DNA of 64,000 nucleotides from Bordetella petrii. GTDB taxonomy: Bacteria > Pseudomonadota > Gammaproteobacteria > Burkholderiales > Burkholderiaceae_B. The stretch lies in assembly GCF_017356245.1 (NCBI RefSeq), contig NZ_JAFMZZ010000004.1, positions 627,163 through 691,162 of the forward strand, given 5' to 3'. Each line of letters opens with the position of its first letter. The first letter of the stretch is position 1. Positions 545-15,409 of the stretch are shown piece after piece. The translations under genes were made by a program, and so were the position numbers. The notes below the pieces were generated by a model that saw only the letters and a program-made list of their open reading frames with translations, was not told where the DNA came from and did no database searches.

Positions 545-1549
545 CTAGTAGCGATCAAAGAAATCCTGCAGCCTGGCCGGGTCGCGGGTCAGCGACAGGC
601 CCAGCATCAGCAGGATGCGGGCTTTTTGAGGGCTGAGTTCGCCTGCGGCGATGAAGCCGGCGGCGGCGTCATCGACTTCGACGTTGCGGCCGACCCGGCC
701 GCTGCCCGTGCGGCTGGCGCGCACCACGGCCACCCCGCCGGCCGCCGCGCGCCGCAGCGCCTGCAGGGCGACATCGGTGGCATTGCCGTCGCCCACCCCC
801 GCCAGCACGATGCCGCGTGCGCGCGTGGCGAGAAAGTCGATCAGGTCGGCGCCCAGGTCGACCCCGGCGTGGACGATGTCGACGCGGGGCCAGCCGGCGG
901 CGTCGAGGGCTTCCAGCGAAAAGGCGCTGGCGCCGGAATGCACGGTGTCGTTGCGCGAAAAGAAGCTGGCCTGCGCGCCGCGCATGACCCCTGCCCTGCC
1001 GCGATTAGGCGAGGCAAAGGCGTTGACGCCCGCGCAGGCGATTTTTTGCACCTCGCGCGCATAGTGGATGTCTTCGTTCATGACGACCAGCGGCCCGCGC
1101 CCGCGCGCGGCGGCACAGCCGGCCAGAGCCACGGCGTGGAACAGATTGGCCGGCCCGTCGGCCCCTGGCGCGGTGGCCGGCCGCATTGCGCCGACCAGCA
1201 CCAGCGGCTTGTCGTGGCGTATGACCAGGCTGAGGAAATACGCGGTTTCTTCGAGGGTGTCGGTGCCGTGGGTGACGACGATGCCATCGACCGCCGGATC
1301 GCCGCACAATGCCTCGATGCGGCGCGCCAGGCTGGCCCATACGCCATGCGTCATGTTCTGGCTGCCGACACTGGCCACCTGCTCGGCCTGTATGCGCGCC
1401 AGCCCGGCCAGGCCGGGCACGGCGTCCAGCAGCTGGCCGACGTCCAGCGCGCCGGCACGGTAGGCGTGCGACGCGGTGTCAGCCTGGGCGCCAGCGATCG
1501 TGCCGCCGGTTGCCAGCACGGCAATTGCCGGCAGGCGGGCTTCAGGCAT
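545..1549 (-). CDS. ansA: Type I/II-like L-asparaginase
   Basis: Predicted to hydrolyse L-asparagine to aspartate and ammonia. The 334-residue length fits the asparaginase/glutaminase family. The N-terminal ATGGTIAG motif carries the nucleophilic Thr, and a second family motif, VTHGTDTLEETAYFL, supplies the second Thr and the Asp. I chose the start MPEARLPAIAVLATGG because the upstream extension reads through parB in another frame and breaks the family N-terminus. The start overlaps the parB stop by 8 bp, so it is probably translated from the end of the parAB transcript. No signal peptide is evident, so I infer a cytoplasmic enzyme. Asparaginase versus glutaminase preference cannot be decided from sequence. 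Confidence 0.9.
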   Translation of the reverse strand: MPEARLPAIAVLATGGTIAGAQADTASHAYRAGALDVGQLLDAVPGLAGLARIQAEQVASVGSQNMTHGVWASLARRIEALCGDPAVDGIVVTHGTDTLEETAYFLSLVIRHDKPLVLVGAMRPATAPGADGPANLFHAVALAGCAAARGRGPLVVMNEDIHYAREVQKIACAGVNAFASPNRGRAGVMRGAQASFFSRNDTVHSGASAFSLEALDAAGWPRVDIVHAGVDLGADLIDFLATRARGIVLAGVGDGNATDVALQALRRAAAGGVAVVRASRTGSGRVGRNVEVDDAAAGFIAAGELSPQKARILLMLGLSLTRDPARLQDFFDRY

Positions 1550-2453
1550 CCAGCACCCCGGACAGACCCTGGCGCTCGAGCAGCGAGTTGAGATGTTCCC
1601 AGCCGTGGAAATCGATGACGATCTGGCCCTTGTCACGGGCGCCCACTTTCAGGGCCACGCGCGTGCCCAACTGGTCGGACAGGGCTTCTTCGAGGCGCGC
1701 CACATCGCGCGAGGCGCCATTGCTTTTCTTGCGCGGCGCCGCTTCGGATTCTTTGGCGGTTTTGGCGACCAGCTTTTCGGCTTCGCGCACCGACAGGCGC
1801 TTGGCGATGATCTGGTTGGCCAACTGGATCTGCATGGCGGCATCGACCGCCAGCAGCGCGCGCGCGTGGCCCATGTCGATGTCGCCGGCCAGCAGCATGG
1901 TTTGCACCGCGGCAGCCAGGTTCATCAGACGCAGCAGGTTGCTGGTGGCCGAACGCGAGCGGCCGATGGCCTGGGCGGCCTGTTCGTGCGTGAGGCCGAA
2001 CTCGTCGAGCAGGCGGCGCACGCCCTGCGCTTCTTCGAGGGGATTGAGGTCTTCGCGCTGGATGTTTTCGATCAGCGCCATGACCGCGGCGTTTTCGTCG
2101 GCGACTTCGCGCACCAGCACGGGCACTTCTTTAAGGCCTGCCAGCTGGGCGGCGCGGAACCGGCGTTCGCCGGCAATGATTTCATAGTGGCCCGGGTCGT
2201 CGCTGAGCGCGCGCACCAGGATGGGCTGCATGATGCCCTGGGTGCGGATGGATTCGGCCAGTTCGTTCAGGGCGCCTTCGTCCATGCGCGTGCGCGGCTG
2301 GTATTTGCCGGCCCGCATCTTGATGACGGGCAGCGTCGACGGCGGCCCTTCGGCCTTGGCCGGGGCTTTGCCGATGGTATCGATAGCGGGCCCGTCTGCG
2401 CCGAGCAGGGCATCCAGCCCGCGGCCCAGACCCTTGGGTTTTTTGGTGGCCAT
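1542..2453 (-). CDS. parB: Chromosome-partitioning protein ParB
   Basis: ParB is the CTP-dependent DNA clamp that loads at parS, spreads, and recruits SMC and ParA for origin segregation. The 303-residue protein opens with the conserved GLGRGLDALLG box. The central domain carries the GERRFRAAQ CTP-binding/arginine motif and the ENIQREDLNPLEEA block, followed by a helix-turn-helix and a C-terminal dimerisation tail. The start MATKKPKGLGRG is chosen because the 19 extra upstream codons are not family-like. It follows parA after a 179-bp gap, and three parS sites lie upstream of mnmG at about 6.1-6.2 kb. Confidence 0.97.
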   Translation of the reverse strand: MATKKPKGLGRGLDALLGADGPAIDTIGKAPAKAEGPPSTLPVIKMRAGKYQPRTRMDEGALNELAESIRTQGIMQPILVRALSDDPGHYEIIAGERRFRAAQLAGLKEVPVLVREVADENAAVMALIENIQREDLNPLEEAQGVRRLLDEFGLTHEQAAQAIGRSRSATSNLLRLMNLAAAVQTMLLAGDIDMGHARALLAVDAAMQIQLANQIIAKRLSVREAEKLVAKTAKESEAAPRKKSNGASRDVARLEEALSDQLGTRVALKVGARDKGQIVIDFHGWEHLNSLLERQGLSGVLDA

Positions 2454-2587
2454 GTCGAGTGATCCTTTTACAACTTTCGATTCTTGCTGCGGCCGCCTTG
2501 CGGACCGCATGCCAGGGCGCCGACCACGGCAACGCCCCCTTCAGGCGCAAACTGGAACGATACGCCCGGCCGCGAACGCGGTGAACG

Positions 2588-2632: not shown

Positions 2633-3433
2633 TCAATCCATGGTTTCGACGCGCTTGACCATCTCGGCGCCGAAGGAAATATAGGCCTGGGCCCCGCGCG
2701 AGGCCTGGTCGTACACCACGCCGGGCAGGCCGTAGCTGGGCGCTTCCGCCAGACGGACGTTACGGGGAATGACCGTGGAAAACACCTTGTCTCCGAAGTG
2801 CGATTCAAGCTGGGCCGATACCTGCTGCTGCAGTGTCATGCGCGGGTCGAACATGACACGCAACAGACCGATCAATCGCAGCTCGCCGTTGATGTTGCGG
2901 TGCACGCGCTTGATGGTGTTGACCAGGTCGGACAGCCCTTCGAGCGCGAAGTATTCGCACTGCATGGGAATGATGACCCCGTGCGCGGCCGCCAGGCCGT
3001 TGAGGGTAAGCAGCGACAAGGTGGGCGGGCAGTCGATGAGCACGAAATCGTATTGGTCGACGATGTTGTCGATGGCCGATTTCAGCTGGCGTTCGCGCTC
3101 GTCCATGTTGACCAGGTCGATCTCGGCGCCGGAAAGTTCGCGGTTGGCGGGCAGTACGTCGTAGCCCCCTGCTTCGGACCGTACGCGGGCCTGCTCGATG
3201 GACGCATCGCCGATCAGCACCTGGTACAGATTGGATTCCAGGCTGCTTTTGTCGATGCCGCTGCCCATGGTGGCGTTGCCCTGCGGATCGAGGTCTACCA
3301 GCAGCACCCGCTTGCCATAGGTGGCCAGGCCCGCCGCCAGGTTGATGGCGGTGGTGGTCTTGCCGACGCCGCCTTTCTGGTTCGCAATGCAGAATACGCG
3401 GGCGCCACGCGGGCTGGACGATGTGGTGTTCAT
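2633..3433 (-). CDS. parA: Chromosome-partitioning ATPase ParA
   Basis: A Walker-type ATPase that forms the nucleoid-bound gradient along which ParB-parS complexes move. The 266-residue protein has the deviant Walker A motif KGGVGKTT near residue 20, a Walker A' region VLLVDLDPQGNAT and a Walker B region DFVLIDCPPTLSLLTLNGL. The start MNTTSSSPRGARV sits 8 bp from the rsmG stop; longer reading frames run into rsmG. The order mnmG-rsmG-parA-parB is the classical origin-proximal operon of many bacteria, and the tight spacing suggests one transcript. Confidence 0.97.
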   Translation of the reverse strand: MNTTSSSPRGARVFCIANQKGGVGKTTTAINLAAGLATYGKRVLLVDLDPQGNATMGSGIDKSSLESNLYQVLIGDASIEQARVRSEAGGYDVLPANRELSGAEIDLVNMDERERQLKSAIDNIVDQYDFVLIDCPPTLSLLTLNGLAAAHGVIIPMQCEYFALEGLSDLVNTIKRVHRNINGELRLIGLLRVMFDPRMTLQQQVSAQLESHFGDKVFSTVIPRNVRLAEAPSYGLPGVVYDQASRGAQAYISFGAEMVKRVETMD

Positions 3434-3441
3434 AGAGTTCC

Positions 3442-4128
3442 TTAACTGCGACGCATCCAGATCAGGCAGCGTTGCGCATCCAGCGTCGGGACTTGCAGCG
3501 CCTGGATGTCTTGCACCTGCCATTCGCCCTGCTGGCGCAAGGCTTGAATCTCGTCTTCCGGGACCTTCCCTTTCATGGCGACGAGCGTACCATCGTTGCG
3601 CACATGGCGACCCGCCAGCGACGCAAAATCATTGAGCGAAGCGAATGCGCGCGAGATGACGATATCGCAGCCGGCCGGCGGCAGATCTTCGACCCGCGCA
3701 TGCAGCGCGCGCAAATTGGGCAACGCCAGCACGCCGGACATCTGCCGCACGAAGGCCATTTTCTTTTCCACCGCATCGACGCAAGCCACTTGCCAGCTGG
3801 GCCGCATGATGGCGAGTACGACGCCGGGCAGGCCTGCGCCCGAGCCGATGTCGTACACGCTGGCCGCCGCGCCCGCTTCGATGGCGCGGCTGAGCGGATT
3901 GACGACGCTCAGGCTGTCGAACAGATGCTGCACCAGCATCTGCCGAGGGTCGCGAATGGCGGTGAGGTTATAGGTGCGATTCCAGCGCTGCATTTGCGCC
4001 AGATAGGCCAGCAGTTTGCCGGCTTGCGGTTCATCCACCTGCAGGTCCAGGGTTTCGCTGGCTTGGCGCAAGCGCTGCGCCAGGTCGGCGTCGGGCGCCG
4101 CGCCTTCGTGCTGCGCAGGCGGGCTCAT
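3442..4128 (-). CDS. rsmG: 16S rRNA (guanine-N7) methyltransferase RsmG
   Basis: RsmG (GidB) methylates N7 of G527 in 16S rRNA using S-adenosylmethionine. At 228 residues it has the family length. It carries the SAM-binding motif [15 protein letters not shown] and the N-terminal [21 protein letters not shown] block typical of the family. Its ATG overlaps the mnmG stop as ATGA, so the two are translationally coupled. In other bacteria, loss gives low-level streptomycin resistance. Confidence 0.97.
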
Positions 4129-6044
4129 GCGGCTTGCTTGCGCGAGCCGTAGTGCAGGCGCTTGAGATGGATGAGCAGCAGCGAGATGGCTGCGGGTGTC
4201 ACGCCGGAAATGCGGGCGGCCTGCCCGATGGTTTCCGGACGGTGCGCCTTGAGCTTCTGCCGCACTTCAAACGACAGGCTGCTGACCGCGTCGTAATCGA
4301 TATCGGCCGGAATGCGCTGTTGTTCATGCGCCAGGTGCTTTTGCACTTCGTCCTGCTGGCGGGCAATGTAGCCGGCGTACTTGACCTGTATTTCAACCTG
4401 CTCGGCCAGGATCTCGTCGCCCGCCACGCCGGGGCCGGCCAGCAAGCTGCCGTCGGTGTTCCGGGCCTGCATCAGCGCGGCATAGGAAACCGCGGGCCGC
4501 TTGAGTAAATCTGATAGTGAGTACTCACGTTCAATTGCTTTGCCGAGCAAGGGTTCGGCCGCTTCTACGGGGAAACTGCGCGGATTGACCCAGGTGGACT
4601 TCAGGCGTTCGACTTCCGCCGCAACGGCGTCGCGCTTGCGGCTGAACGCGTCCCAACGCGCGTCGTCCACCAGGCCCAGTTTGCGTCCGATTTCGGTCAG
4701 GCGCAGATCGGCATTGTCTTCGCGCAGGCTCAAGCGGTATTCAGCGCGCGATGTGAACATGCGGTACGGCTCGGTTACGCCGCGGGTGACCAGGTCGTCG
4801 ACCAGCACACCCAGGTAGGCTTCGTCGCGGCGCGGTGTCCAGGTGTCGCGGTCCAGTGCCTGCAGTGCGGCATTGGCGCCAGCGAGCAGGCCTTGCGCCG
4901 CGGCCTCTTCATAGCCGGTGGTGCCGTTGATCTGGCCCGCAAAATACAGGCCGCTGATGGCCTTGGTTTCCAGGGTGCTCTTGAGCGCGCGAGGGTCGAA
5001 GTAGTCGTATTCGATGGCGTAGCCCGGCCGCAGAATGTGCGCGTTCTCGAGCCCCGGCAAGGAGTGGATCAGATCCCACTGCACATCGAAGGGCAGGCTG
5101 GTAGAGACGCCGTTGGGATAGACCTCGTGTGTATCCAGCCCTTCGGGCTCCAGAAACACCTGGTGCGAGGCCTTGTCGGCAAACCGGTGGATCTTGTCTT
5201 CGATAGACGGGCAATAGCGCGGGCCGACGCCTTCGATCACGCCACTGTACATGGGCGAGCGATCGAGCCCGCCGCGAATGATGTCGTGGGTGCGCGCATT
5301 GGTATGAGTGATCCAGCAGGGCAGTTGCCGCGGGTGCATGGCGGCGCTGCCCAGGAACGAGAATACCGGCACCGGGTCCAGGTCGCCTGGCTGCTCTTCC
5401 AGAACGCTGTAGTCGATGGTGCGCCCGTCAATGCGTGGAGGCGTGCCCGTCTTGAGCCGCCCTTGCGGCAACTGCAGCTCTTTCAGGCGCTGCCCCAGGG
5501 AGTTGGCTGGCGGGTCTCCCGCGCGACCGCCGGAGTAGTTCTGCAAGCCCACATGAATCAGGCCGTTCAAGAACGTTCCAGCCGTCAGCACGACTGTACG
5601 AGCGCGAAACTTCAGGCCGATCTGTGTCACCGCCCCAACCACATGATCGCCCTCGACCATCAGGTCATCTACCGCCTGCTGGAATATCCACAGATTTGGC
5701 TGGTTTTCCAGACGGCTGCGGATAGCCTTGCGATACAGCACACGATCAGCCTGGGCGCGCGTGGCTCGTACCGCTGGGCCTTTCGAGCCATTCAAGATCC
5801 GGAATTGGATACCTGCTTCATCAGTGGCAATCGCCATTGCGCCACCCAGCGCGTCGACCTCTTTGACCAGATGTCCTTTCCCAATACCGCCGATTGACGG
5901 ATTGCAGGACATTTGCCCCAGAGTTTCGATGTTGTGCGTCAGTAGTAGTGTCTTGGCGCCAATACGGGCTGCGGCTAACGCGGCCTCGGTGCCGGCGTGA
6001 CCGCCACCGACGACGATCACGTCAAATTCGCGGGGGTAATCCAT
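4125..6044 (-). CDS. mnmG: tRNA uridine-5-carboxymethylaminomethyl modification enzyme MnmG
   Basis: MnmG (GidA) is the FAD- and NADH-dependent partner of MnmE that modifies U34 of certain tRNAs. The N-terminus has the FAD motif [19 protein letters not shown], then [18 protein letters not shown], and the family C-terminal helical region ends the 639-residue protein. I use the start [10 protein letters not shown]; an ATG 12 codons upstream (6080) has a GAGG about 12 nt before it and cannot be excluded. The coding sequence contains a perfect SlmA-type palindrome at 4517-4528. Its partner mnmE is at 35.4-36.8 kb. Confidence 0.96.
4517..4528. promoter_or_regulatory. Perfect SlmA-type binding site inside mnmG
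   Basis: GTGAGTACTCAC is a perfect 12-bp palindrome and is identical to the E. coli SlmA-binding site consensus for nucleoid occlusion. It lies within the mnmG reading frame, in codons for Glu-Tyr-Ser-Leu. A second identical copy lies at 14231-14242, and the shared identity extends to the following TTCAA after one mismatch. Confidence 0.75.
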
Positions 6045-6100
6045 GATGAAAAGCGAGAGGAAAGAGCTGGTTGACTCCATTATAGAGGCGACCTCGGTAA

Positions 6101-6116
6101 TGTTTCACGTGAAACC
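6101..6116. promoter_or_regulatory. parS site 1
   Basis: TGTTTCACGTGAAACC matches the ParB-binding consensus TGTTTCACGTGAAACA at 15 of 16 positions. It is the parS copy nearest mnmG and one of three within 125 bp. Confidence 0.95.
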
Positions 6117-6160
6117 TTGAGCGGAGTTGCAACTACTGGCGTCTCTGCAACAACGCTCGA

Positions 6161-6176
6161 TGTTTCACGTGGAACA
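6161..6176. promoter_or_regulatory. parS site 2
   Basis: TGTTTCACGTGGAACA matches the parS consensus at 15 of 16 positions. The single change, in the right half, leaves the CACGTG core intact. Confidence 0.94.
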
Positions 6177-6209
6177 TTCGAATAGCGCCAGGCTACCGCC
6201 GCTACTCAT

Positions 6210-6225
6210 GGTTTCACGTGAAACA
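6210..6225. promoter_or_regulatory. parS site 3
   Basis: GGTTTCACGTGAAACA matches the parS consensus at 15 of 16 positions, with only the first base changed. The three sites start 60 and 49 bp apart. Confidence 0.95.
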
Positions 6226-6820
6226 ATAGCGACGCAGAGCACCCCGTCGCGAGACAACAAACGGGCGAATGTATCGACAGACCGAGGCATGCCCTGGGCA
6301 ACTATCCACAATCTACTCACAGGCGCTGCCTCGCTTTTGACGCATCAAATGACGTTCAGACGCCCTGGGGATATCTCTGTGAACAACTCCAGCCCCTGTG
6401 CCGCGCTGCAGCAGCAACAGCCTTCACGCAAGCAACAAGATGCGCGGCCAAAGCAGAAGCCCGTGGCCCGCCCTCGGGCTTAAACACCGGAAAACACGGA
6501 GCTTTTTCATGCCGTAGGCCGGCAAACGCCGGCCCGTGGCTGCCGATAGTCTTCTACCTATGGGCCGGCATGTTCTTATAACCATGCTGTGCAAAACTAA
6601 GCGCGGGCCCGTTCCAGCCGGCGACGGCGCACAAGACCAAGGGCCGCGGGCCTGAAAACTATCCACAGAGTTATGCCCGCAGTTACCCACATGCCGCCCC
6701 CTCTGCGCGACACACATACGGCAGGCCGGCAAAAGTATCTGCCGGCCCACCGGGTTCTGCGCGAATGCCCAGATGTGAAAAGCAAGTGCGGTACGCGCCG
6801 CCAACGGGCCTGGATATAAC
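6226..6820. other. Non-coding gap between parS and csp, with weak DnaA boxes and hairpins
   Basis: No credible gene is visible. I see near-consensus DnaA boxes CTATCCACA (6302-6310 and 6659-6667), TTACCCACA (6683-6691) and, on the minus strand, TTGTTCACA (6378-6386). Two hairpins share the stem GGCCGGC/GCCGGCC (6517-6534 and 6724-6747). The gap may contribute to the origin domain, but it lacks a strong AT-rich tract and a perfect DnaA box, so I rank it below 13.9-14.3 kb as oriC. Confidence 0.5.
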
Positions 6821-6853
6821 AACGCCCCGGAAGCCATGCGGCTGCGGGGCGTT
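6821..6853 (-). terminator. Rho-independent terminator of the cold-shock gene
   Basis: AACGCCCCG pairs with CGGGGCGTT around a loop that itself can pair (AAGCC/GGCT). On the minus strand it is followed by GTTATAT, moderately T-rich. It lies about 50 bp after the csp stop. A second hairpin (ACCAGGGG/CCCCTGGT, 6856-6876) sits between them. Confidence 0.7.
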
Positions 6854-6901
6854 GCACCAGGGGGAGGGCCCCTGGTTTACGGGAAAGCGGGATTTCCCGA
6901 T

Positions 6902-7108
6902 TTAAAGCGGCCGAATATCGGCCGCTTGAGGCCCTTTCGGGCCGTCCTTGACTTCGAATTCGACTTCCTGGCCTTCGTTCAGGCTGCGATAGCCGCGGCC
7001 CTGGATAGCCGAGAAATGCGCGAATACGTCGGTGCCGCCGGCGTCCGGCGTGATGAAGCCGAAACCCTTATCGGCGTTGAACCATTTGACCTTGCCCTTC
7101 TGAACCAT
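6902..7108 (-). CDS. CspA-family cold-shock protein
   Basis: A 68-residue single-stranded nucleic-acid-binding protein expected to act as an RNA chaperone. The cold-shock domain is complete: [16 protein letters not shown] contains RNP1, and DVFAHFSAI contains RNP2. A promoter about 100 bp upstream predicts a 5' UTR of roughly 90 nt, in keeping with the long leaders of cold-shock genes. The stop codon is followed by two hairpins, one terminator-like. Whether it is cold-induced or constitutive cannot be told from the sequence. Confidence 0.95.
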
Positions 7109-7205
7109 TTGTATAGCGTCCTGGAAATAAAAACGAATGCAAGTGAATCAAGGACGCCAACGCCTGAGAGATGCCTGTGCAACACTTGAATCAACTGCGA
7201 AAGTC

Positions 7206-7234
7206 AGCATACTCACGCGTCTTGGACAAAACAA
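7206..7234 (-). promoter_or_regulatory. Putative sigma-70 promoter of the cold-shock gene
   Basis: On the minus strand TTGTTT is followed after 17 bp by TATGCT, a good match to -35 and -10 boxes at optimal spacing. It would start transcription about 90 nt before the csp ATG. Confidence 0.55.
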
Positions 7235-7384
7235 ATAGTTGTTTACCCCTATGTGGCTTTTTCCCCATGATGGTGCCCGGAAATATGCCTGTCACCGGCA
7301 CTGCCACCGGCCCTTGCCCGCGGCCTGGTTAGTGGGATACTTACGCGGGTTCTTCTTCCACTCTTACCACGCTGCTTCATCGCC

Positions 7385-8551
7385 ATGATCCGATCCAAGC
7401 TGCCAGATGTCGGCACGACTATCTTTACCGTCATGAGCCGGCTGGCCATTGAACACCAAGCCATCAACCTGGGGCAGGGCTTTCCCGACTTCGACCCGGA
7501 CCCCCGGCTGTGCGAGCTCGTGGCGCGGGCCATGAGCGCGGGCCACAACCAGTACCCATACATGCCCGGCGTCGCCCCGCTGCGCCAGGCGATTGCCGAG
7601 AAAACCCAGGCACTGTACGGCCGGGCCTACGACCCTGAAACTGAAATCACCGTTACCAGCGGCGCGACCGAAGCCCTGATGGCCACCGTGCTGGCGGCAG
7701 TCAACAGTGGCGACGAGGTGGTGGTGATCGAGCCGTGCTACGACTCGTATCTGCCGGCGATCCGGCTGGCCGGCGGCACCGCGGTGCCCGTGCCGCTGCG
7801 CGCCCCCACACCCGACGACCCGTACTACCGCATCGACTGGCAGCGCGTGCGCGACGCGATTACCTCGCGCACGCGCCTGCTGATGCTGAATTTCCCGCAC
7901 AACCCGACCGGCGCCGTGCTGGACGACAGCGACCTGGATGCGCTGGAAAGCATAGTGCACGACACCGGCGTGCTGTTGCTGTCGGACGAGGTTTATGAAC
8001 ACATCGTGTTCGACGGCAAGCCGCACGCCAGCCTGGCCCGGCGGCCGCTGCTGGCCGAACATGCTTTCGTGATCTCGTCATTCGGCAAGACGTACCACAC
8101 TACCGGATGGAAAGTGGGCTATTGCTGCGCGCCCCGCCAACTGAGCGCCGAGCTGCGCAAGGTGCATCAGTTCATGGTGTTCACGGTGTCGTCGCCCATG
8201 CAGTTCGGGCTGGCTGAATACATGCGCGACCCCAAGCCGTACAACGACCTGCCGGCGTTCTACCAGGCCAAGCGCGACCGCCTGGCCGCGGGCCTGGCGC
8301 GCACGCGCTTCAAGCCGCTGCCCAGCCCGGGCACGTTTTTTATGCTGGCCGACTACAGCGCCATCTCGAAGCAGTCTGAAGCCGATTTTGCTCGCGACTT
8401 GACCGCGCAGCATGGTGTAACGGTGATCCCCGTGTCGGCCTTCTACCAGCATCCCGATGCCGAATCATCCAACCACCAACTGGTGCGGTTCTGCTTCGCC
8501 AAGAAAGACGCCACGCTGGACGCAGCCATCGAGAGACTGGCGAACGTATAA
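7385..8551 (+). CDS. PLP-dependent aminotransferase (methionine/kynurenine-type, YbdL-like)
   Basis: A class I/II aminotransferase of 388 residues. The PLP-binding lysine lies in SSFGKTYHTTGWKVGY. Other fold-type I motifs include INLGQGFPDF near the N-terminus, NFPHNPTGAVL and the aspartate in LLSDEVYEHIVF. The sequence resembles the YbdL group, which transaminates methionine and aromatic amino acids; the exact substrate is inference. It is the only plus-strand protein gene left of 13.9 kb. No clear Shine-Dalgarno sequence is visible before the ATG. It converges on bctA and ends at the bctA terminator. Confidence 0.9.
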   Translation: MIRSKLPDVGTTIFTVMSRLAIEHQAINLGQGFPDFDPDPRLCELVARAMSAGHNQYPYMPGVAPLRQAIAEKTQALYGRAYDPETEITVTSGATEALMATVLAAVNSGDEVVVIEPCYDSYLPAIRLAGGTAVPVPLRAPTPDDPYYRIDWQRVRDAITSRTRLLMLNFPHNPTGAVLDDSDLDALESIVHDTGVLLLSDEVYEHIVFDGKPHASLARRPLLAEHAFVISSFGKTYHTTGWKVGYCCAPRQLSAELRKVHQFMVFTVSSPMQFGLAEYMRDPKPYNDLPAFYQAKRDRLAAGLARTRFKPLPSPGTFFMLADYSAISKQSEADFARDLTAQHGVTVIPVSAFYQHPDAESSNHQLVRFCFAKKDATLDAAIERLANV

Positions 8552-8585
8552 AAAAATGGGGCCGGATGGGCGTCCATCCGGCCCC
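8550..8585 (-). terminator. Strong Rho-independent terminator of bctCBA
   Basis: GGGGCCGGATGG pairs perfectly with CCATCCGGCCCC (12 bp) around a 4-nt loop. On the minus strand it is followed by A and then six T. It ends the bctCBA transcript between the convergent bctA and aminotransferase genes. Confidence 0.92.
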
Positions 8586-8601
8586 GGCAGAAGCAGCGCG
8601 G

Positions 8602-10128
8602 TCAGACGGCCGCTTTGCGCGCCTGGCGGCTTTCGCGAACCCGGCGCAGCAATTGCGGAACGACAACCACGGCTGCGGCGGCAATCCACAGGCCCACCGA
8701 CACCGAGCTGCTGTACAGCACGGAGACGTCGCCGTTGGTGATGGACAGTGCGCGGCGCAGGTTCTGCTCCATCATGTCTCCCAGCACCACGCCCAGTACC
8801 AGCGGCGCCATGGGCACCCCGAACTTGCGCAGGAAGTAGCCGATCGTGCCGATGCCGACCACCATCAGCAGGTCGAAGGTGCCCGAGTTGATCGCATACA
8901 CGCCGATGTAGCTGATGCTGAGAATACCCGGCACCATCAGCCAGCCCGGCACCGACAGCACCTTGGAGAACACGCGAACCATCGGCACGTTCATCAGGAA
9001 CAGCAGCACGTTGGCGATGAACAGCGAAGCGATCAGGCCCCACACCAGTTCGGGCTTGGTATCGAACAGCACGGGGCCCGGCGTGATGTTGTACAGCGTC
9101 AGGGCGCCCATCATCACGGCAGTGGTGCCCGAGCCCGGCACACCGAGCGTCAGCATGGGCACGAACGAACCGATGGCCGACGCGGTCGCGGCGGATTCGG
9201 GCGCGACCAGGCCGCGCATGTCGCCCTTGCCGAACTTGGCGTCGGGATCCTTGCTTTCGATAATGCGCTTTTCCTGCGAGTACGCCACGGCGGCGGCCAC
9301 GCTGGCGCCGGCGCCGGGCAGCACACCCACGCCGAACCCGACCAGCGCACTGCGCCCGATGCTGCCGGCGGTGAAGGCCAGCTCTTTCAGGTTGAACAGC
9401 TTGCGGCCGCTGGACTTGACCTCGACGCTGTGGCCGGCCACGACCTTTTCCAGCATTTCCAGCATTTCGGCCACCGCAAACAAGGCAATGACCACCACGA
9501 CGAAGTCGATGCCGTCAGCCAGGTGCACAGAATCGAAGGTGTAGCGATACACGCCTGAGTTGGAATCGACGCCGATCACCGAAATTCCCAGGCCGATCAT
9601 GGCGGCCAGCACGCCCTTGACCGGCTGCTTGCCCAGCAGGCTGGTCAGGCAGCAGAAAGCAAAGACCATCAGCACGAAATACTCGGCCGGCCCGAATGCC
9701 AATGCCCATCTGGCCAACAGGGGAGCCAGCAGGATGATGCCGATGACCGAGACGATGGATCCGGCGAACGCCGAGGCGGCCGACAGCGACAGGGCTACGT
9801 TGGCCATACCCTGCCGGGCCAGCGGATAGCCGTCGAGCGTGGTCATGATGGCGCTGGCCTCGCCCGGCACATTCAGCAGGATGGAGGTGATGCGTCCCCC
9901 ATATTCAGCCCCTACGTACACCGCGGCCAGCAGAATCAGTGCGGTTTCCGGCGGCAGGTTCATCGCGAAAGCGATGGGTATCAGCATCGCCACGCCGTTG
10001 ATGGGGCCCAGGCCGGGCAGTACGCCGACCATCGTGCCGATGAACGAACCGATGGCCGCCACCAGCAGGTTGGTCAGCGAAAAGGCGACGCCGAAACCGA
10101 TAGACAGGTGATCGAGAATGGCGCTCAT
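8602..10128 (-). CDS. bctA: Tripartite tricarboxylate transporter large membrane subunit, BctA/TctA
   Basis: The 508-residue permease of a TTT-family secondary transporter that imports citrate-like carboxylates with the periplasmic protein BctC. It is highly hydrophobic with about twelve helices and carries TctA signatures such as GVLPGLGPINGVAMLIP near residue 40, GGRITSILLNVPGEASAIMT, and a second GVLPGAGASVAAAVAYSQEKR. The start overlaps the bctB stop (ATGA). Gene order bctC-bctB-bctA, with the bctE/bctD pair upstream, matches the B. pertussis citrate-uptake locus. The actual substrate here is inferred from that similarity. Confidence 0.94.
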   Translation of the reverse strand: MSAILDHLSIGFGVAFSLTNLLVAAIGSFIGTMVGVLPGLGPINGVAMLIPIAFAMNLPPETALILLAAVYVGAEYGGRITSILLNVPGEASAIMTTLDGYPLARQGMANVALSLSAASAFAGSIVSVIGIILLAPLLARWALAFGPAEYFVLMVFAFCCLTSLLGKQPVKGVLAAMIGLGISVIGVDSNSGVYRYTFDSVHLADGIDFVVVVIALFAVAEMLEMLEKVVAGHSVEVKSSGRKLFNLKELAFTAGSIGRSALVGFGVGVLPGAGASVAAAVAYSQEKRIIESKDPDAKFGKGDMRGLVAPESAATASAIGSFVPMLTLGVPGSGTTAVMMGALTLYNITPGPVLFDTKPELVWGLIASLFIANVLLFLMNVPMVRVFSKVLSVPGWLMVPGILSISYIGVYAINSGTFDLLMVVGIGTIGYFLRKFGVPMAPLVLGVVLGDMMEQNLRRALSITNGDVSVLYSSSVSVGLWIAAAAVVVVPQLLRRVRESRQARKAAV

Positions 10129-10562
10129 AGCAGGTCTCCCAGTACGCCGACAGGCAGCACCACATCCAGCGCCTGGTCAAACAGCAAAAAGAAGAACACG
10201 CCCATGATGACGCCGCCCAGGGCGCATTTCAGCCAGGTTCCGCCAAACAGGCGGCCCACGAAAATCGTCATCAGGGCCGTGGAGATGATGAATCCGAGCC
10301 ACTGGAACAAGAATGCGTAAGCCGCCGCGGCCAGCACCATCAGGGCGATGCGCGAGTTGGCGCCCGCCGAATTCTTTTCCACGGGGTTGCCGCCCTTGAT
10401 GGCCAGGCGCAACCCGCACAGGCCGATGATCAGCGCCACCAGCATCGGAAAGGCGCGCGGCCCTACCGGTTCGTAGGCAAACGGGGCTTCGATATCCCAG
10501 CCCAGCCACGTCATGAGGCCAGCCAGGATCAGGGCGAAAATGCCCAAAGTTCGATCATTCAT
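10125..10562 (-). CDS. bctB: Tripartite tricarboxylate transporter small membrane subunit, BctB/TctB
   Basis: A 145-residue membrane protein of the TctB family with about four predicted helices (near residues 7-25, 37-55, 76-105 and 115-140). It forms the membrane complex with BctA. The family is poorly conserved, so assignment rests on hydrophobicity, size and its position between bctC and bctA. It overlaps bctA by 4 bp and follows bctC after 98 bp. Confidence 0.88.
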   Translation of the reverse strand: MNDRTLGIFALILAGLMTWLGWDIEAPFAYEPVGPRAFPMLVALIIGLCGLRLAIKGGNPVEKNSAGANSRIALMVLAAAAYAFLFQWLGFIISTALMTIFVGRLFGGTWLKCALGGVIMGVFFFLLFDQALDVVLPVGVLGDLL

Positions 10563-10660
10563 GATCCAGTTTCCAGAAATCGGAAAGCCGCCAGCGCACC
10601 GGCGCAGGGGTCAGGCGCGCGGCGGCGTGGAACGGGGCGGCCGGGCGCCGCCCCAGGGGC

Positions 10661-11656
10661 TTACTTTTTGACCAGGCCGAAGCTGTCGGCCAGTTCGCGG
10701 TACATCTTCACGCGTTCTTTGACGTAGGCATCGAGTTCGGCGCCGGTCTTGTTGAACGGGAACAGGCCCTGCTGCTCGCGCAGCTTGGCGTATTCCGGCG
10801 AAGACATGGTCTTGTTGAAGGCATCTACCCAGAATTGGTAGTCTTTGTCGGACACCTTGGGGCCAACGTAGAAGCCGCGGATGATGGGCCAGTCGATGTC
10901 ATAGCCCTGTTCCTTCGCGGTAGGCACCGAGTTCAGCTTGCCGGGCAGGCGTTCGTTGTTGAACACCGCCAGCACGCGGATCGGCGCGCCACCTTCCAGC
11001 ATGGTGAAGGCTTCGGCCGCGTCACCCATGTAAGCCTGGATATGGCCGCCGCGCAGCGCGGTCACGGCTTCGCCGCCCCCTTCAAACGCCACGAAACGCA
11101 TCTTGCGGAAATCCACGCCGGCCGCCTTGGCGGTCAGGGCGGCTTTCATCCAGTCCTGGCTGCCCACGGTGCCACCGGCGCCCAGCACGATCTTGGTGGG
11201 GTCTTTCTTGAAAGCCTCCATCAGGCTCTTCAGATCGGTATAGGGCGAATCATTGCGCACCACGGCCACGCCGTAGTCGGTACCAATGCCCGCCAGCCAG
11301 CGCACGTCGTCGACGTTGTACTTGCCGAACTTGCCCTGCGCCAGGTTCAACAGCGAACCGCCCGAGAACGCCACGATGGTGCCGGGCTCGTCGGGATGCT
11401 GGGCCACGATGTTGTTGTAGGCCACTGCGCCGATGCCGCCGGGCATGTAGATGATGCGCATGGGTTCTTTCAATGCGCCGCTTTGCTTCAGGCCTTCGGT
11501 GGCCAGCCGGCAGGTCAGGTCGAAACCGCCGCCGGGCTGGGCCGGCGCGATACATTCGGGCCGGCGCGGCTCGTCGGCCGCGTGGGCAGCCATGCCCACA
11601 GACAGCGCACATGCGCCAATAACCGCCGCCAGGCGGGCTTTCAGGAAGGATTGCAT
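10661..11656 (-). CDS. bctC: Periplasmic tricarboxylate-binding protein, BctC/TctC (Bug family)
   Basis: A 331-residue extracytoplasmic binding protein. The N-terminal segment MQSFLKARLAAVIGACALSV, ending before AHAADE, is a typical Sec signal peptide with a probable AxA cleavage site. The Bug fold is indicated by PGGGFDLTCRLATEGL, the YMPGGIGAVAYNNI loop and GAGGTVGSQDWMKAA. In B. pertussis, BctC both captures citrate and takes part in signalling through the sensor BctE, whose gene lies immediately upstream here. Two further Bug genes occur in this window, at 47.3 and 59.0 kb. Confidence 0.93.
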   Translation of the reverse strand: MQSFLKARLAAVIGACALSVGMAAHAADEPRRPECIAPAQPGGGFDLTCRLATEGLKQSGALKEPMRIIYMPGGIGAVAYNNIVAQHPDEPGTIVAFSGGSLLNLAQGKFGKYNVDDVRWLAGIGTDYGVAVVRNDSPYTDLKSLMEAFKKDPTKIVLGAGGTVGSQDWMKAALTAKAAGVDFRKMRFVAFEGGGEAVTALRGGHIQAYMGDAAEAFTMLEGGAPIRVLAVFNNERLPGKLNSVPTAKEQGYDIDWPIIRGFYVGPKVSDKDYQFWVDAFNKTMSSPEYAKLREQQGLFPFNKTGAELDAYVKERVKMYRELADSFGLVKK

Positions 11657-11776
11657 CTTGCGGTCTCCGTGAATCGCTTTTTGGATGTCATCGTCAGCGG
11701 ACCATGCCCATACAGCGGGACCATGGCCAACGGATCAGAACCGTACTCAATGCAGGCTTTCCGGAAGCTTTCAGAA

Positions 11777-13240
11777 TCAGGCAATTTCATGCCGCAATGC
11801 AGCATTCGGGAAGGAATCTAGGGTAAACACCAATGCCGCGCGCAGCCCGGGAAGCGGCGCGCGGTTTTCCAGCACCATTTTGCCGCCATGGATTTCCACG
11901 ATGGTGCCCACGATGGCCAGGCCCAGGCCGGCGCCAGGCTTGTTCTTGCCGGCGGCGCCCCGGCGGAACCGCACGCTGGCGCGGGCGATGTCTTCCGCCG
12001 ACATGCCCGGGCCGCTGTCTTCCACGGTAAGCCGGGCGTAGCGCTCGTCGGCATAGACCCGCACCGTGACCTGGCTGGCCGGCGCGGTATAGCGGATGGC
12101 ATTGTCCACCAGGTTGCTGAGGGCTTCGCGCAGCAGCCAGTCGACCCCCTGGATGCGCACCGGCAGGCTCGAAGCCTCGAGTCCCAGGTCTATCTGGCGG
12201 GCCCGCGCGGCCGGCAGCAGAGTTCGGATCACGCCCTGGGCCACTTCCGCGAGGTCTACCGGCGCCGGCGCCAGGCCGCCTTCGGCCAGCGGTGCATCCT
12301 TGGCGCGCGCCAGCGCCAGCATCTGGTTGGTAGTGCGCACGGCCCGATCCAGGCCTTCCTGCATGGCCAGCAGCACCGTGCGGACTTCCTGGGGATCTGA
12401 TTCGCGCAGGGCGTAGGCAGTCTGGGTGCGCAAAATCGACAGCGGCGTGCGCAACTGATGCGAGGCGTCGTCCAGAAACTGCCGCTGCAGCCTCGCCTGG
12501 GCCGCAAAACGGGCCATGTGCAGGTTTACGGCGTCGACCAGGGGTGCGACCTCACCCGGGATATCCGGCGCGTCTACGGGGCTGAGATCGTCTGCAGACC
12601 GGCCTTCGACCTCCTGGCGTAGCCGCTCGAGGGGGCGGACCGCCATGAAAACGCTCCAGACGACGACCAGCACCACGATGGCAATGACCACGATATCGCG
12701 TTCCAGCGCCCGCACCAGCGCGCGCTGCAGGAAGTCTTGCCGCGATTCGAGTGTTTCGGCCACTTGTACGATGACGCGGCCGCCCAGGTTGTTGTACAGC
12801 GGCGGATCCATCGGCCGCGCCAGGGCCGCCACACGCAGCGGCACGCCCTGGTATTCGGCATAGAAGAACTGTGGCTGCCCGGAAATCAGGGGCTTGTCGG
12901 GCAATGGCAGGTCGGGGTTGCCGATTTCCGCCAGCCCGTCTTCGGTGGCCACCCGGTAATACACGCTGCCGTTGGCCGTGAGTTCGAAAAATTCGAACAT
13001 CAGGTAGGGCTGCTCCATGGCCAGGCCGCCGCTGGCTGTGGATATGTTGTGGTCGATGGAACGCAGCGCGCCGGACAATGACCGGTCATAGGCCAGATCG
13101 ACCTGGTGACGCAGCTGGTAATTGGACAGCCACAGGGCAGCCAGCATGATGCAGACCAGGGCCGGAATCAGCCACCACAGCAGCAAGGATTTCAAGGTGC
13201 GGTGGTGCGCGGATTTTGCCCAGCGGCCGGGCCTAGGTTT
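11777..13240 (-). CDS. bctE: Sensor histidine kinase BctE/TctE
   Basis: A membrane sensor kinase of about 487 residues paired with BctD. It has an N-terminal TM helix (LLLWWLIPALVCIMLAALWL), a periplasmic sensor domain, a second TM helix (ERDIVVIAIVVLVVVWSVFMAV), a HAMP linker, the phosphoacceptor motif FLDDASHQLRTPLSILRTQ, and N-box and G-box segments (NLVDNAIRYT, EDSGPGMS, GAGLGLAIV). I place the start at a TTG (13240) because GGAGG lies 6 nt upstream and it overlaps the bctD stop by 8 bp. The ATG at 13294 would give an arginine-rich extension with no ribosome site. Expected to sense citrate-bound BctC. Confidence 0.9.
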   Translation of the reverse strand, partial: KPRPGRWAKSAHHRTLKSLLLWWLIPALVCIMLAALWLSNYQLRHQVDLAYDRSLSGALRSIDHNISTASGGLAMEQPYLMFEFFELTANGSVYYRVATEDGLAEIGNPDLPLPDKPLISGQPQFFYAEYQGVPLRVAALARPMDPPLYNNLGGRVIVQVAETLESRQDFLQRALVRALERDIVVIAIVVLVVVWSVFMAVRPLERLRQEVEGRSADDLSPVDAPDIPGEVAPLVDAVNLHMARFAAQARLQRQFLDDASHQLRTPLSILRTQTAYALRESDPQEVRTVLLAMQEGLDRAVRTTNQMLALARAKDAPLAEGGLAPAPVDLAEVAQGVIRTLLPAARARQIDLGLEASSLPVRIQGVDWLLREALSNLVDNAIRYTAPASQVTVRVYADERYARLTVEDSGPGMSAEDIARASVRFRRGAAGKNKPGAGLGLAIVGTIVEIHGGKMVLENRAPLPGLRAALVFTLDSFPNAALRHEIA

Positions 13241-13910
13241 CAAGAACGGCCTCCAGGCAGTACCCCATGCCGCGCAGCGTGACAATCTGCACACCGGTGT
13301 CGGCCAGTTTTTTGCGCAGCCGGTGCACCAGCACTTCGATGGCTTCCAGGTTGACGTCGGAATCGTCGGTCTGGATGCGATCGAGGATCTGCTGCTTGTT
13401 CATGGGTTCGCCGCTGCGCTGGATGAGCACGCGCAGCACGGCGTGTTCGCGCGGTGAAAGCTGCAGCGGCTGGCCACGCACGGTAAACCGCTGGGCGGAA
13501 GTATCCAGCAGCAGGTTGCCCAGCGCCAGGCGCGGGTGTTCCCGGCCGCGGCTGCGGCGGATCAGCGCGGTCAGCCGGGCTTCGAGCTCTTCCAGCACAA
13601 ACGGTTTGGGCAGAAAGTCGTCGGCGCCTTCGTGCAGGGTGCCCACCCGTTCAGCCAGCGAGTCGCGGGCGGTCAGCACCAGTACCGGCGTGCGGTCGTC
13701 GCGGGCCCGGATCCTGGACAACAGAGTGTGTCCGTCCATGCCCGGCAGGCCCAGGTCGAGAATGACAGCGTCGAATTCCTCGACGGCCAGGCGCCGTTCA
13801 GCCAGCAGGCCGTCGTCTGCCCATTCCACCACGAATCCGGCATGGCGGGCCAGGCTGCGCGACAGCCATCTGGCCAGTTCGGCCTCGTCTTCTATGAGCA
13901 GGATACGCAT
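13233..13910 (-). CDS. bctD: OmpR-family response regulator BctD/TctD
   Basis: A 225-residue two-domain regulator: an N-terminal receiver (MRILLIEDEAELARWL, with the phosphorylated Asp in FDAVILDLGLPGMDG and the Lys in DDFLPKPF), then a winged-helix DNA-binding domain (LSPREHAVLRVLIQ ... VDVHRLRKKL-like recognition region). It likely activates bctCBA when phosphorylated by BctE. It is the first gene of the bctDE pair and is transcribed away from the AT-rich gap at 13.9-14.3 kb, so its promoter must lie within that candidate origin. Confidence 0.94.
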   Translation of the reverse strand: MRILLIEDEAELARWLSRSLARHAGFVVEWADDGLLAERRLAVEEFDAVILDLGLPGMDGHTLLSRIRARDDRTPVLVLTARDSLAERVGTLHEGADDFLPKPFVLEELEARLTALIRRSRGREHPRLALGNLLLDTSAQRFTVRGQPLQLSPREHAVLRVLIQRSGEPMNKQQILDRIQTDDSDVNLEAIEVLVHRLRKKLADTGVQIVTLRGMGYCLEAVLET

Positions 13911-14183
13911 GACCCGAATTTTGGCATTGGCGCGTGGTGGTGGGGCATTGATGTTTTTTCTCTTTTCTTTTTCTTTATATAAAGACTAATGATTAATAAG
14001 GCCTGTGGACAACTGCATCAACTCAGAATTACCTAATATTTTCATGTGCTTGCGGCTGTTTTTGGCTGTGCACGACTTCTGTGTGGAGTTCTGGACCAAG
14101 TTGAACAACTTTTCGGGAAAGGATGGAAACCGGGTTTGTTCAGCCTGGATCCACATGCTGTGCACAGTAGCGTTGCTTAGACG

Positions 14184-14192
14184 TTATCCACA
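14184..14192 (+). promoter_or_regulatory. Perfect DnaA box
   Basis: TTATCCACA is the consensus high-affinity DnaA site and the strongest box in the candidate origin. It lies about 185 bp from the AT-rich tract. Confidence 0.75.
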
Positions 14193-14230
14193 GGCATGGG
14201 TGCAGCGGGTTTGACCCGATATTTAACAGG

Positions 14231-14242
14231 GTGAGTACTCAC
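14231..14242. promoter_or_regulatory. Perfect SlmA-type binding site next to candidate oriC
   Basis: GTGAGTACTCAC is identical to the copy in mnmG and to the E. coli SlmA consensus. It sits 39 bp after the perfect DnaA box and 88 bp before the ada-like start codon. SlmA bound here would inhibit FtsZ assembly over the origin region. Confidence 0.78.
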
Positions 14243-14329: not shown

Positions 14330-15409
14330 ATGAAAGCTCCATATTCCGTTGCCAGCCACTATACGACCGACGAAGCTCGCTGGCTGGCTGTCTGCGCGCG
14401 CGACGCCGCGGCTGACGGCCATTTTGTCTATGCCGTGCGCACCACGGGCGTGTACTGCCGGCCCAGCAGTTCGTCGCGCCTGCCGCGGCGGGAAAACGTG
14501 CAGTTCTTTGACACGCCACAAGCCGCCGAGGCGGCGGGCTACCGGCCCAGCCGCCGGGTTGCCGCCGATCGCAGCGCCGTGGCGGCGCGCCGGGCGGCGC
14601 TGGTGGAACAAGCCTGCCGCCTGATCGAAAATGCCGAAACGCCGCCCAGTCTCGAATCGCTGGCGTCGCAGGCGGGGATCAGTGCTTTCCATTTCCATCG
14701 CCTGTTCAAGGCCGAAACCGGGTTGACGCCCAAGGCCTACGCCAATGCGCACCGCGCCCGGCGGCTGCGCAATGAGCTGGGTGAATCCGGTACTGTCACG
14801 CAGGCTATCTATGAAGCCGGTTTCAATTCCAACAGCCGCTTCTACGAAGCGTCGGACAGCCTGCTGGGCATGCTGCCGCGCGACTACAAGGCGGGGGGAC
14901 ACAACACCGAGATCTACTTTGCCGTGGGCCAATGCGCGCTGGGCGCCATTCTGGTGGCCTGCAGCCAGCGCGGCATTTGCGCCATTTCATTGGGCGATGA
15001 TCCGGATGCCCTGGTGCGCGAGCTGCAGGACCGCTTTTCCAACGCCCGGTTATGTGGCGGGGACCCCGCCTTCGAACAACTGGTCGCCCAGGTGGTGGGG
15101 TTTGTCGAGGCGCCGGCGCTGGGCCTGAACCTGCCCCTGGATGTGCGCGGCACGGCGTTCCAGCAGCGGGTGTGGCAGGCGCTGCGCGACATTCCGGTAG
15201 GCGCCACGGCCAGCTACGCCGAGATCGCCCAGCGCATCGGCGCACCCAAGGCGGTACGCGCGGTGGCCCAGGCGTGCGGCGCCAACCATTTGGCCGTGGC
15301 CATACCCTGCCACCGGATCGTCAGGCGCGACGGCGATATTTCCGGTTACCGCTGGGGTGTGGAGCGCAAGCTCGAGTTGCTGAGGCGCGAAGCGGCCAAG
15401 GCCGCCTAG
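14330..15409 (+). CDS. Ada-like protein: AraC domain plus O6-methylguanine methyltransferase, degenerate zinc site
   Basis: A 359-residue protein with the three-part Ada layout: N-terminal Ada zinc-binding region (about 10-80), AraC helix-turn-helix (about 95-180) and a C-terminal methyltransferase. The repair motif PCHRIV is intact, with the acceptor Cys at residue 327. The N-terminal region keeps TTGVYCRPS (C43), but the other three cysteine ligands of the Ada zinc site are replaced by S47, S74 and V77. It should repair O6-methylguanine but probably cannot bind zinc or take methyl groups from phosphotriesters, the step that activates Ada as a regulator. It could still bind DNA constitutively. 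Confidence 0.88.
   Translation: MKAPYSVASHYTTDEARWLAVCARDAAADGHFVYAVRTTGVYCRPSSSSRLPRRENVQFFDTPQAAEAAGYRPSRRVAADRSAVAARRAALVEQACRLIENAETPPSLESLASQAGISAFHFHRLFKAETGLTPKAYANAHRARRLRNELGESGTVTQAIYEAGFNSNSRFYEASDSLLGMLPRDYKAGGHNTEIYFAVGQCALGAILVACSQRGICAISLGDDPDALVRELQDRFSNARLCGGDPAFEQLVAQVVGFVEAPALGLNLPLDVRGTAFQQRVWQALRDIPVGATASYAEIAQRIGAPKAVRAVAQACGANHLAVAIPCHRIVRRDGDISGYRWGVERKLELLRREAAKAA

Follow-up and report, generated by a model that had tools for sequence, protein, structure and literature searches.

SlmA is known as a chromosome-wide antagonist of FtsZ. Work on Escherichia coli describes about 50 SlmA-binding sites (SBS), which lie mainly in coding regions and are absent from the terminus region, Ter (PMC3116907), and the V. 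cholerae (Vibrio cholerae) protein is a transcriptional activator that works at a single site, in the chb promoter (PMC5519180); Neisseria gonorrhoeae is reported to be without SlmA (PMC3910319). Here we describe a 64,000-nucleotide stretch of the Bordetella petrii genome (contig NZ_JAFMZZ010000004.1, positions 627,163 to 691,162; hereafter the window) that carries two exact copies of a palindromic 12-mer of the SlmA type, GTGAGTACTCAC. One copy, site A, lies inside mnmG near a cluster of parS-like sequences, and the other, site B, lies beside a region that is taken as oriC. The reading that we put forward, tentatively, is that site A is an SlmA site held in place by selection on the DNA, that its role does not involve FtsZ, and that this role is most likely local control of the mnmG-rsmG-parAB genes.

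Compared with the E. coli and V. cholerae systems, the B. petrii locus shares an orthologous SlmA with the same recognition helix, an identical 12-bp consensus, a similar FtsZ tail and a site within a coding region. It differs from E. coli in that B. petrii and its relatives have one or two sites at the origin rather than about 50 dispersed ones, that the site adjoins parS, and that the FtsZ-facing residue R73 is not conserved in the family, with F65, R73 and N102 all changed in seven genomes. The likeness to the V. cholerae chb promoter is one by hypothesis, namely that SlmA would influence expression from one site with no need of FtsZ contact; the V. cholerae site lies in a promoter (PMC5519180), whereas site A sits inside a coding gene where no conserved promoter was seen. 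Caulobacter MipZ-ParB would be a parallel if SlmA at site A were to act on FtsZ, as there too an FtsZ inhibitor is carried by the origin and centromere region. However, MipZ is recruited by ParB, while SlmA, a TetR-family protein, would bind DNA directly; the two are not homologous, and the likeness is one of logic only. Noc of Bacillus subtilis is likewise a division inhibitor bound to DNA sites, but the ParB of the window, the only protein scored in this way, falls under the Noc cut-off (223.7 versus 315 bits). Among the open-access matches listed, judged by titles and the openings of abstracts and with subscription papers mostly outside the search, none dealt with SlmA sites in Bordetella, Achromobacter or other Betaproteobacteria. 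The SlmA-SBS pair described here has one site, linked to the centromere, which part of the family appears to retain independently of FtsZ control. The locus around site A comprises the following features.

4517..4528, site A, a perfect SlmA-type palindrome GTGAGTACTCAC inside mnmG, at codons 518-522 (REYSL)
4125..6080, minus strand, mnmG (gidA), the host gene of site A (TIGR00136, 895.8 bits, above cut-off)
3442..4128, minus strand, rsmG (gidB), directly downstream of mnmG (TIGR00138, 154.2 bits, above cut-off)
2633..3523, minus strand, a parA-type partition ATPase, called from its best NCBIfam models, which are of ParA type, and from operon position (the listed ParA-type matches, the best 25 of 31, are all below their own cut-offs)
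1542..2510, minus strand, parB (TIGR00180, 194.4 bits, above cut-off)
6101..6225, three parS-like 16-mers (starts 6101, 6161 and 6210), 1.58-1.69 kb from site A

A scan of the window finds GTGAGTACTCAC exactly at 4517-4528 and 14231-14242, which bears out the original prediction of two perfect sites, the left one inside mnmG, and the 12-mer agrees with the E. coli SlmA consensus (PMC3116907), as had been proposed. The scan returns four matches at up to three mismatches, including the two exact ones, against an average of 11.9 in shuffled windows; no further copy at two or fewer mismatches occurs in the 64-kb window, and the claim that there is no other full copy holds. The longer flank that the sites were said to share does exist, as GTGAGTACTCACnTTCAA, but it is all they have in common and extends on one side only. 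Genome-wide counting, which had been suggested as a check together with a test for depletion near the terminus, shows that the 4.95 Mb genome contains just these two exact copies, within 10 kb at the origin, where 0.15 are expected per genome and 0.002 per window at the composition of the window. Two exact copies less than 10 kb apart at the origin are not the product of chance. Elsewhere there are no one-mismatch and 15 two-mismatch copies, a total of 17 against 33 for a reversed-pattern control, and with two exact and no one-mismatch sites the B. petrii genome shows no dispersed set of SlmA sites with an absence from Ter.

A search for an slmA homologue, also suggested with the original prediction, finds an intact gene encoding 190 amino acids (NF007015, 276.7 bits versus a cut-off of 120), the stop reported in the match being the gene's own end. 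Solved SlmA structures are among the protein's matches, with 149.6 bits for 4gct, and its gene follows argB and a gene that, from its translation, we take to be of HAD type. The SlmA model gives four further, weaker hits in the genome.

The presence of site A follows that of slmA across the family. SlmA was detected in 36 of 121 family genomes, and 27 of the 121 carry exact GTGAGTACTCAC, in 26 cases within mnmG; all 26 are SlmA-positive (26/36), as opposed to none of the 85 SlmA-negative genomes, and the lone exact copy outside mnmG belongs to an SlmA-negative genome (G086; such handles are ours). Every one of nine Bordetella genomes has the exact 12-mer in mnmG, eight with a single copy and B. 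petrii with two. The ten SlmA-positive genomes that have no exact site include four with one mismatch, one with two, four with three or more and one, G066, in which MnmG gave no match, as it did in seven of the 121 genomes overall. In a collection of named genomes, a 17-base version of the site gives 52 matches, 48 of them in mnmG (29 Achromobacter, 12 Bordetella, 2 Pusillimonas, 2 Candidimonas, 1 Eoetvoesiella and 2 metagenome-assembled genomes with no genus name) and 4 elsewhere.

The same amino acids can be encoded with or without the site, which separates selection on DNA from selection on protein. Where MnmG reads REYS at this position, the exact site is present in 26 of 30 SlmA-positive and 0 of 25 SlmA-negative genomes (Fisher p 8e-12, kinship ignored; these counts and the codon counts exclude G001, G002, G003 and G008, congeners labeled SlmA-positive by genus). 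Of the 294 four-codon windows that could be scored in the 35 SlmA-positive mnmG rows, the one with the highest codon conservation is 518-521; the codon table leaves out the small genomes G015, G055, G084 and G106, which have MnmG and no exact copy. These data indicate that site A is kept by DNA-level selection inside a coding gene and is tied to slmA. On an MnmG tree built without the site region, slmA requires eight changes on the best tree, five of which are forced by supported branches, and in the five independent contrasts on those branches the site (at one mismatch or fewer) tracks SlmA in three to five and never runs the opposite way. Within one genus, G023 has both slmA and the site while G060 has neither.

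The position of site A with respect to the centromere is equally regular. In the window, the only sequences within two mismatches of what we take to be the parS consensus are those at 6101, 6161 and 6210, and with DnaA boxes at 14004 and 14184 they support the predicted arrangement, in which the two sites flank parS and the right-hand one lies beside oriC. The order on the minus strand is parB, parA, rsmG, mnmG and then the parS-like cluster; rsmG is the next gene after mnmG in 30 of 30 loci tested, and the nearest parS-like sequence lies 1575-1696 bp from site A in all 19 origin regions with the site (16 exact and 3 with one mismatch; two others, G101 and G120, are without it).

The SlmA proteins themselves retain their DNA-binding side. 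T33, a DNA-binding residue, is kept in all 36 family sequences and in all 30 others examined, and the recognition-helix stretch SEAALYRH is kept in B. petrii and the 36 family sequences, with residue positions mapped from alignments using a numbering that we assume to be correct. E. coli SlmA needs F65, R73, L94, G97, R101, N102 and L105 against FtsZ, and the changes R73D, F65L and F65S abolish its FtsZ control and leave DNA binding intact (PMC3573117). The B. petrii protein keeps F65, R101 and N102, with Ala at G97 (as in V. cholerae), Met at L94, Leu at R73 and Met at L105, the last a change with which E. coli SlmA stays active (PMC3573117). At position 73 each of the 36 family proteins has Leu, Val or Asp in place of Arg; the 30 others examined have Leu, Ile or Met there. 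In seven genomes from four genera (G023, G037, G042, G048, G069, G073 and G096), F65 has become Leu, Ser or Met, R73 has become Asp and N102 has become His, yet T33, SEAALYRH and the exact mnmG site are kept in all seven. These proteins all score above the SlmA cut-off, and since argB, the HAD-type gene and slmA are adjacent in each of the seven, as in B. petrii, they are orthologues. Conversely, F65, R101 and N102 are retained in the four SlmA-positive genomes whose mnmG has nothing close to the site. With the residues changed and the site kept in seven genomes, and the residues kept and the site lost in four, retention of the site is not tied to the FtsZ-facing residues, and its persistence where those residues have changed suggests that the role for which it is kept is probably independent of FtsZ.

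We infer both SlmA binding to site A and its regulatory effect from these comparisons. Bound there, SlmA would obstruct or modulate the transcription that continues from mnmG through rsmG, parA and parB, and from its place beside parS it could help to set the supply of ParA and ParB, with B. petrii having a second perfect, putative SlmA site at oriC. Local control of the locus is favored because V. cholerae SlmA activates transcription and because, in E. coli, SlmA that is defective toward FtsZ can still repress a promoter when bound to DNA (PMC3573117). We hold a broader proposal with somewhat less confidence still: in SlmA-bearing Alcaligenaceae, SlmA may be, rather than a nucleoid shield, the dedicated factor of one centromere-linked locus, bound to the single perfect site in mnmG and, in B. 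petrii, to a second at oriC. This would be an ancient job independent of FtsZ, and several genera may have dropped the FtsZ-binding residues with no change to the DNA site. If so, many-site nucleoid occlusion would be one elaboration of SlmA and not its sole role. The locus bears on the connection between division inhibitors and centromeres, it is a clear example of a putative regulatory site in DNA being fixed in the synonymous positions of a conserved gene, and the natural orthologues with F65, R73 and N102 changed allow a direct test of SlmA roles apart from occlusion.

Several observations weigh against this proposal of FtsZ-independent local control. Four SlmA-positive genomes (G043, G117, G101 and G120) have three or more mismatches at the position of site A, and the sign test on the five contrasts gives p 0.06-0.25, five pairs being too few to reach significance. 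Outside the family the exact motif occurs in 8 of 242 genomes, never in mnmG, and the reversed control in 11 of the same 242. In mnmG no codon block besides site A is comparably conserved, and bases at the spacing of a -10 element vary, so that nothing points to a promoter within the gene; the 30-genome group behind this comparison was picked by the exact site and is circular, whereas the REYS counts and the 35-row codon figures are not. In E. coli, SlmA is reported not to be a gene regulator (PMC3116907). F65 and N102 are kept in 29 of the 36 family SlmA sequences, the B. petrii genome combines F65, R101 and N102 with a conserved FtsZ tail, and in the seven changed relatives other residues may have taken over the contact with FtsZ.

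The main alternative, which we consider less probable, is a role in division, in which SlmA at site A, inside the parS/ParB centromere, and in B. petrii also at site B, at oriC, would inhibit FtsZ near the origins and free mid-cell as the origins separate, following the logic of MipZ. Such a role would suit a site that adjoins parS in 19 of 19 regions and an SlmA that keeps F65 and N102 in most of the family. SBS-bound E. coli SlmA antagonizes FtsZ, and the E. coli FtsZ C-terminal peptide DYLDIPAFLRKQAD binds SlmA (PMC4117426); the B. petrii FtsZ tail, DHFDIPAFLRKQAD, the only one compared, resembles it. It is harder to square with the replacement of R73 in all 36 family and 30 other sequences, with retention of the site in the seven genomes with F65, R73 and N102 changed and its loss in four that keep F65 and N102, and with the fact that a single site is few for nucleoid shielding. 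The seven changed orthologues lead us to rank an FtsZ-independent local role above it, and inhibition of FtsZ from the origin is possible within the Bordetella-Achromobacter group, which retains F65 and N102 and, in B. petrii, the FtsZ tail as well. Of the original prediction, that SlmA-like occlusion operates near the origin, the SlmA part is supported by the slmA homologue, by a motif count above expectation with both copies at the origin, and by the link between SlmA and the site (26/36 versus 0/85), and neither outcome named as refuting it was obtained. Occlusion itself stays a hypothesis; a dispersed set depleted at the terminus is absent, seven genomes keep the site with FtsZ residues changed, and the oriC elements of congeners carry one to three mismatches.

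The remaining explanations are considerably less probable. SlmA at site A might serve the architecture of the centromere or origin, for instance by restraining the spread of ParB or by anchoring the region at the membrane, with no part for FtsZ or transcription; the constant 1.6-kb distance to parS and the reported binding of SlmA to lipid membranes (PMC7468209) fit this idea, but the distance also follows from gene order, with parS just upstream of mnmG, and we think the idea improbable. Equally improbable is a dispersed, E. coli-like set with a looser motif of which site A is the strongest member. The imperfect oriC elements of the genus would agree with it, as would the lack of exact sites above background for other Burkholderiales SlmA proteins, which may bind something else or nothing, but sites at up to one mismatch fall below control matches in the 36 SlmA-positive family genomes (36 one-mismatch sites versus 107 exact or one-mismatch control matches), in 14 SlmA-negative genomes (15 versus 55, exact included) and in 70 SlmA-positive genomes outside the family (70 versus 185, exact included), the last two groups having been chosen by the analyst. 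At this stringency no dispersed set of SlmA sites is seen in the family or in the 70, and a wider set outside the family was rejected for want of enrichment there. We consider it very unlikely that the true binder is another TetR-family protein kept and lost together with slmA: co-occurrence cannot name the binder, and the genome has four weaker SlmA-model matches, but the 12-mer is the E. coli SlmA consensus (PMC3116907), T33 and the recognition helix persist in proteins with an altered FtsZ side, and the site tracks slmA inside a genus (G023 and G060). That protein-level constraint or chance produced the mnmG motif is scarcely credible; REYS is common in MnmG of the family, but genomes encoding it have the exact site in 26 of 30 SlmA-positive and 0 of 25 SlmA-negative cases, and the codons of the site rank first for conservation in SlmA-positive rows.

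The origin and the second site are defined by three features to the right of the parS cluster.

14004..14192, oriC core, an inverted DnaA-box pair, TGTGGACAA at 14004 and TTATCCACA at 14184, 180 bp apart
14231..14242, site B, perfect GTGAGTACTCAC, its start 47 bp to the right of that of the right DnaA box
14330..15409, plus strand, ada, the next gene past site B (NF011964, 466.3 bits, above cut-off)

The DnaA-box pair, located with what we assume to be the DnaA box consensus and with one box imperfect, lies between a TctD-like regulator gene and ada, and 16 of 20 other origin regions likewise contain a pair spaced 179-181 bp apart. The GC skew is weak and leaves the position of the origin unfixed. 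The eight congeners have an element corresponding to site B at 44-47 bp from the right DnaA box, in an otherwise diverged spacer, in the forms GTGAGTACTTAC (n = 1, one mismatch), GTGAATACTTAC (n = 6, two mismatches) and GTGAACACTTAC (n = 1, three mismatches), so that among nine Bordetella genomes the site is perfect in B. petrii only. It was not seen at the oriC position in ten displayed regions of other genera. That SlmA binds site B is a guess. A role as an ada promoter element does not account for site B in full, since the element is also present in Bordetella sp. BOR01, whose 20-kb region yielded no ada. Two Bordetella relatives, G004 (L238:13755) and G006 (L240:11923), have GTGAATGCTCAC and GTGAGTGCTCAC, respectively, at the same offset inside ada, near oriC.

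To the right of the parS cluster lie an aminotransferase gene, transport genes presumably of tct type (named from translation and position), a histidine kinase, the TctD-like response regulator and, past oriC, ada; the kinase and the regulator, to which TctD is closest, are both below the cut-offs of the models listed. A cspA thermoregulator RNA (Rfam RF01766) is matched at 6850-7236 on the minus strand, with the parS cluster on one side and the aminotransferase gene on the other, exactly at the gathering score of 78 bits. As this sole Rfam match lies away from both sites, an RNA element at site A or B was set aside. An intragenic promoter at site A was also considered (TTGAAC, 17 bp, then GATTTA in the B. 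petrii genome), but its position varies among relatives.

Farther afield, SlmA is present in 176 of 250 genomes of the order sample, without exact consensus sites above background. In a class sample of 143 genomes, seven have the exact motif, and only B. petrii has more than one copy; tblastn gave no mnmG match in the eight outside-family loci, in L033 or in the six class-sample loci. In a 50-kb oriC region of E. coli K-12 the only 12-mer at two or fewer mismatches is GTGAGCATTCAC, which lies inside mnmG at L342:24141-24152 (NC_000913, about 3924140), some ten codons away from where site A would fall by homology; an ancestral mnmG site was considered, but this near-site may be a coincidence. 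Finally, two origin regions, L247 (G120) and L248 (G017), each contain two DnaA-box pairs with 180-181 bp spacing, which suggests a duplicated oriC-like unit.

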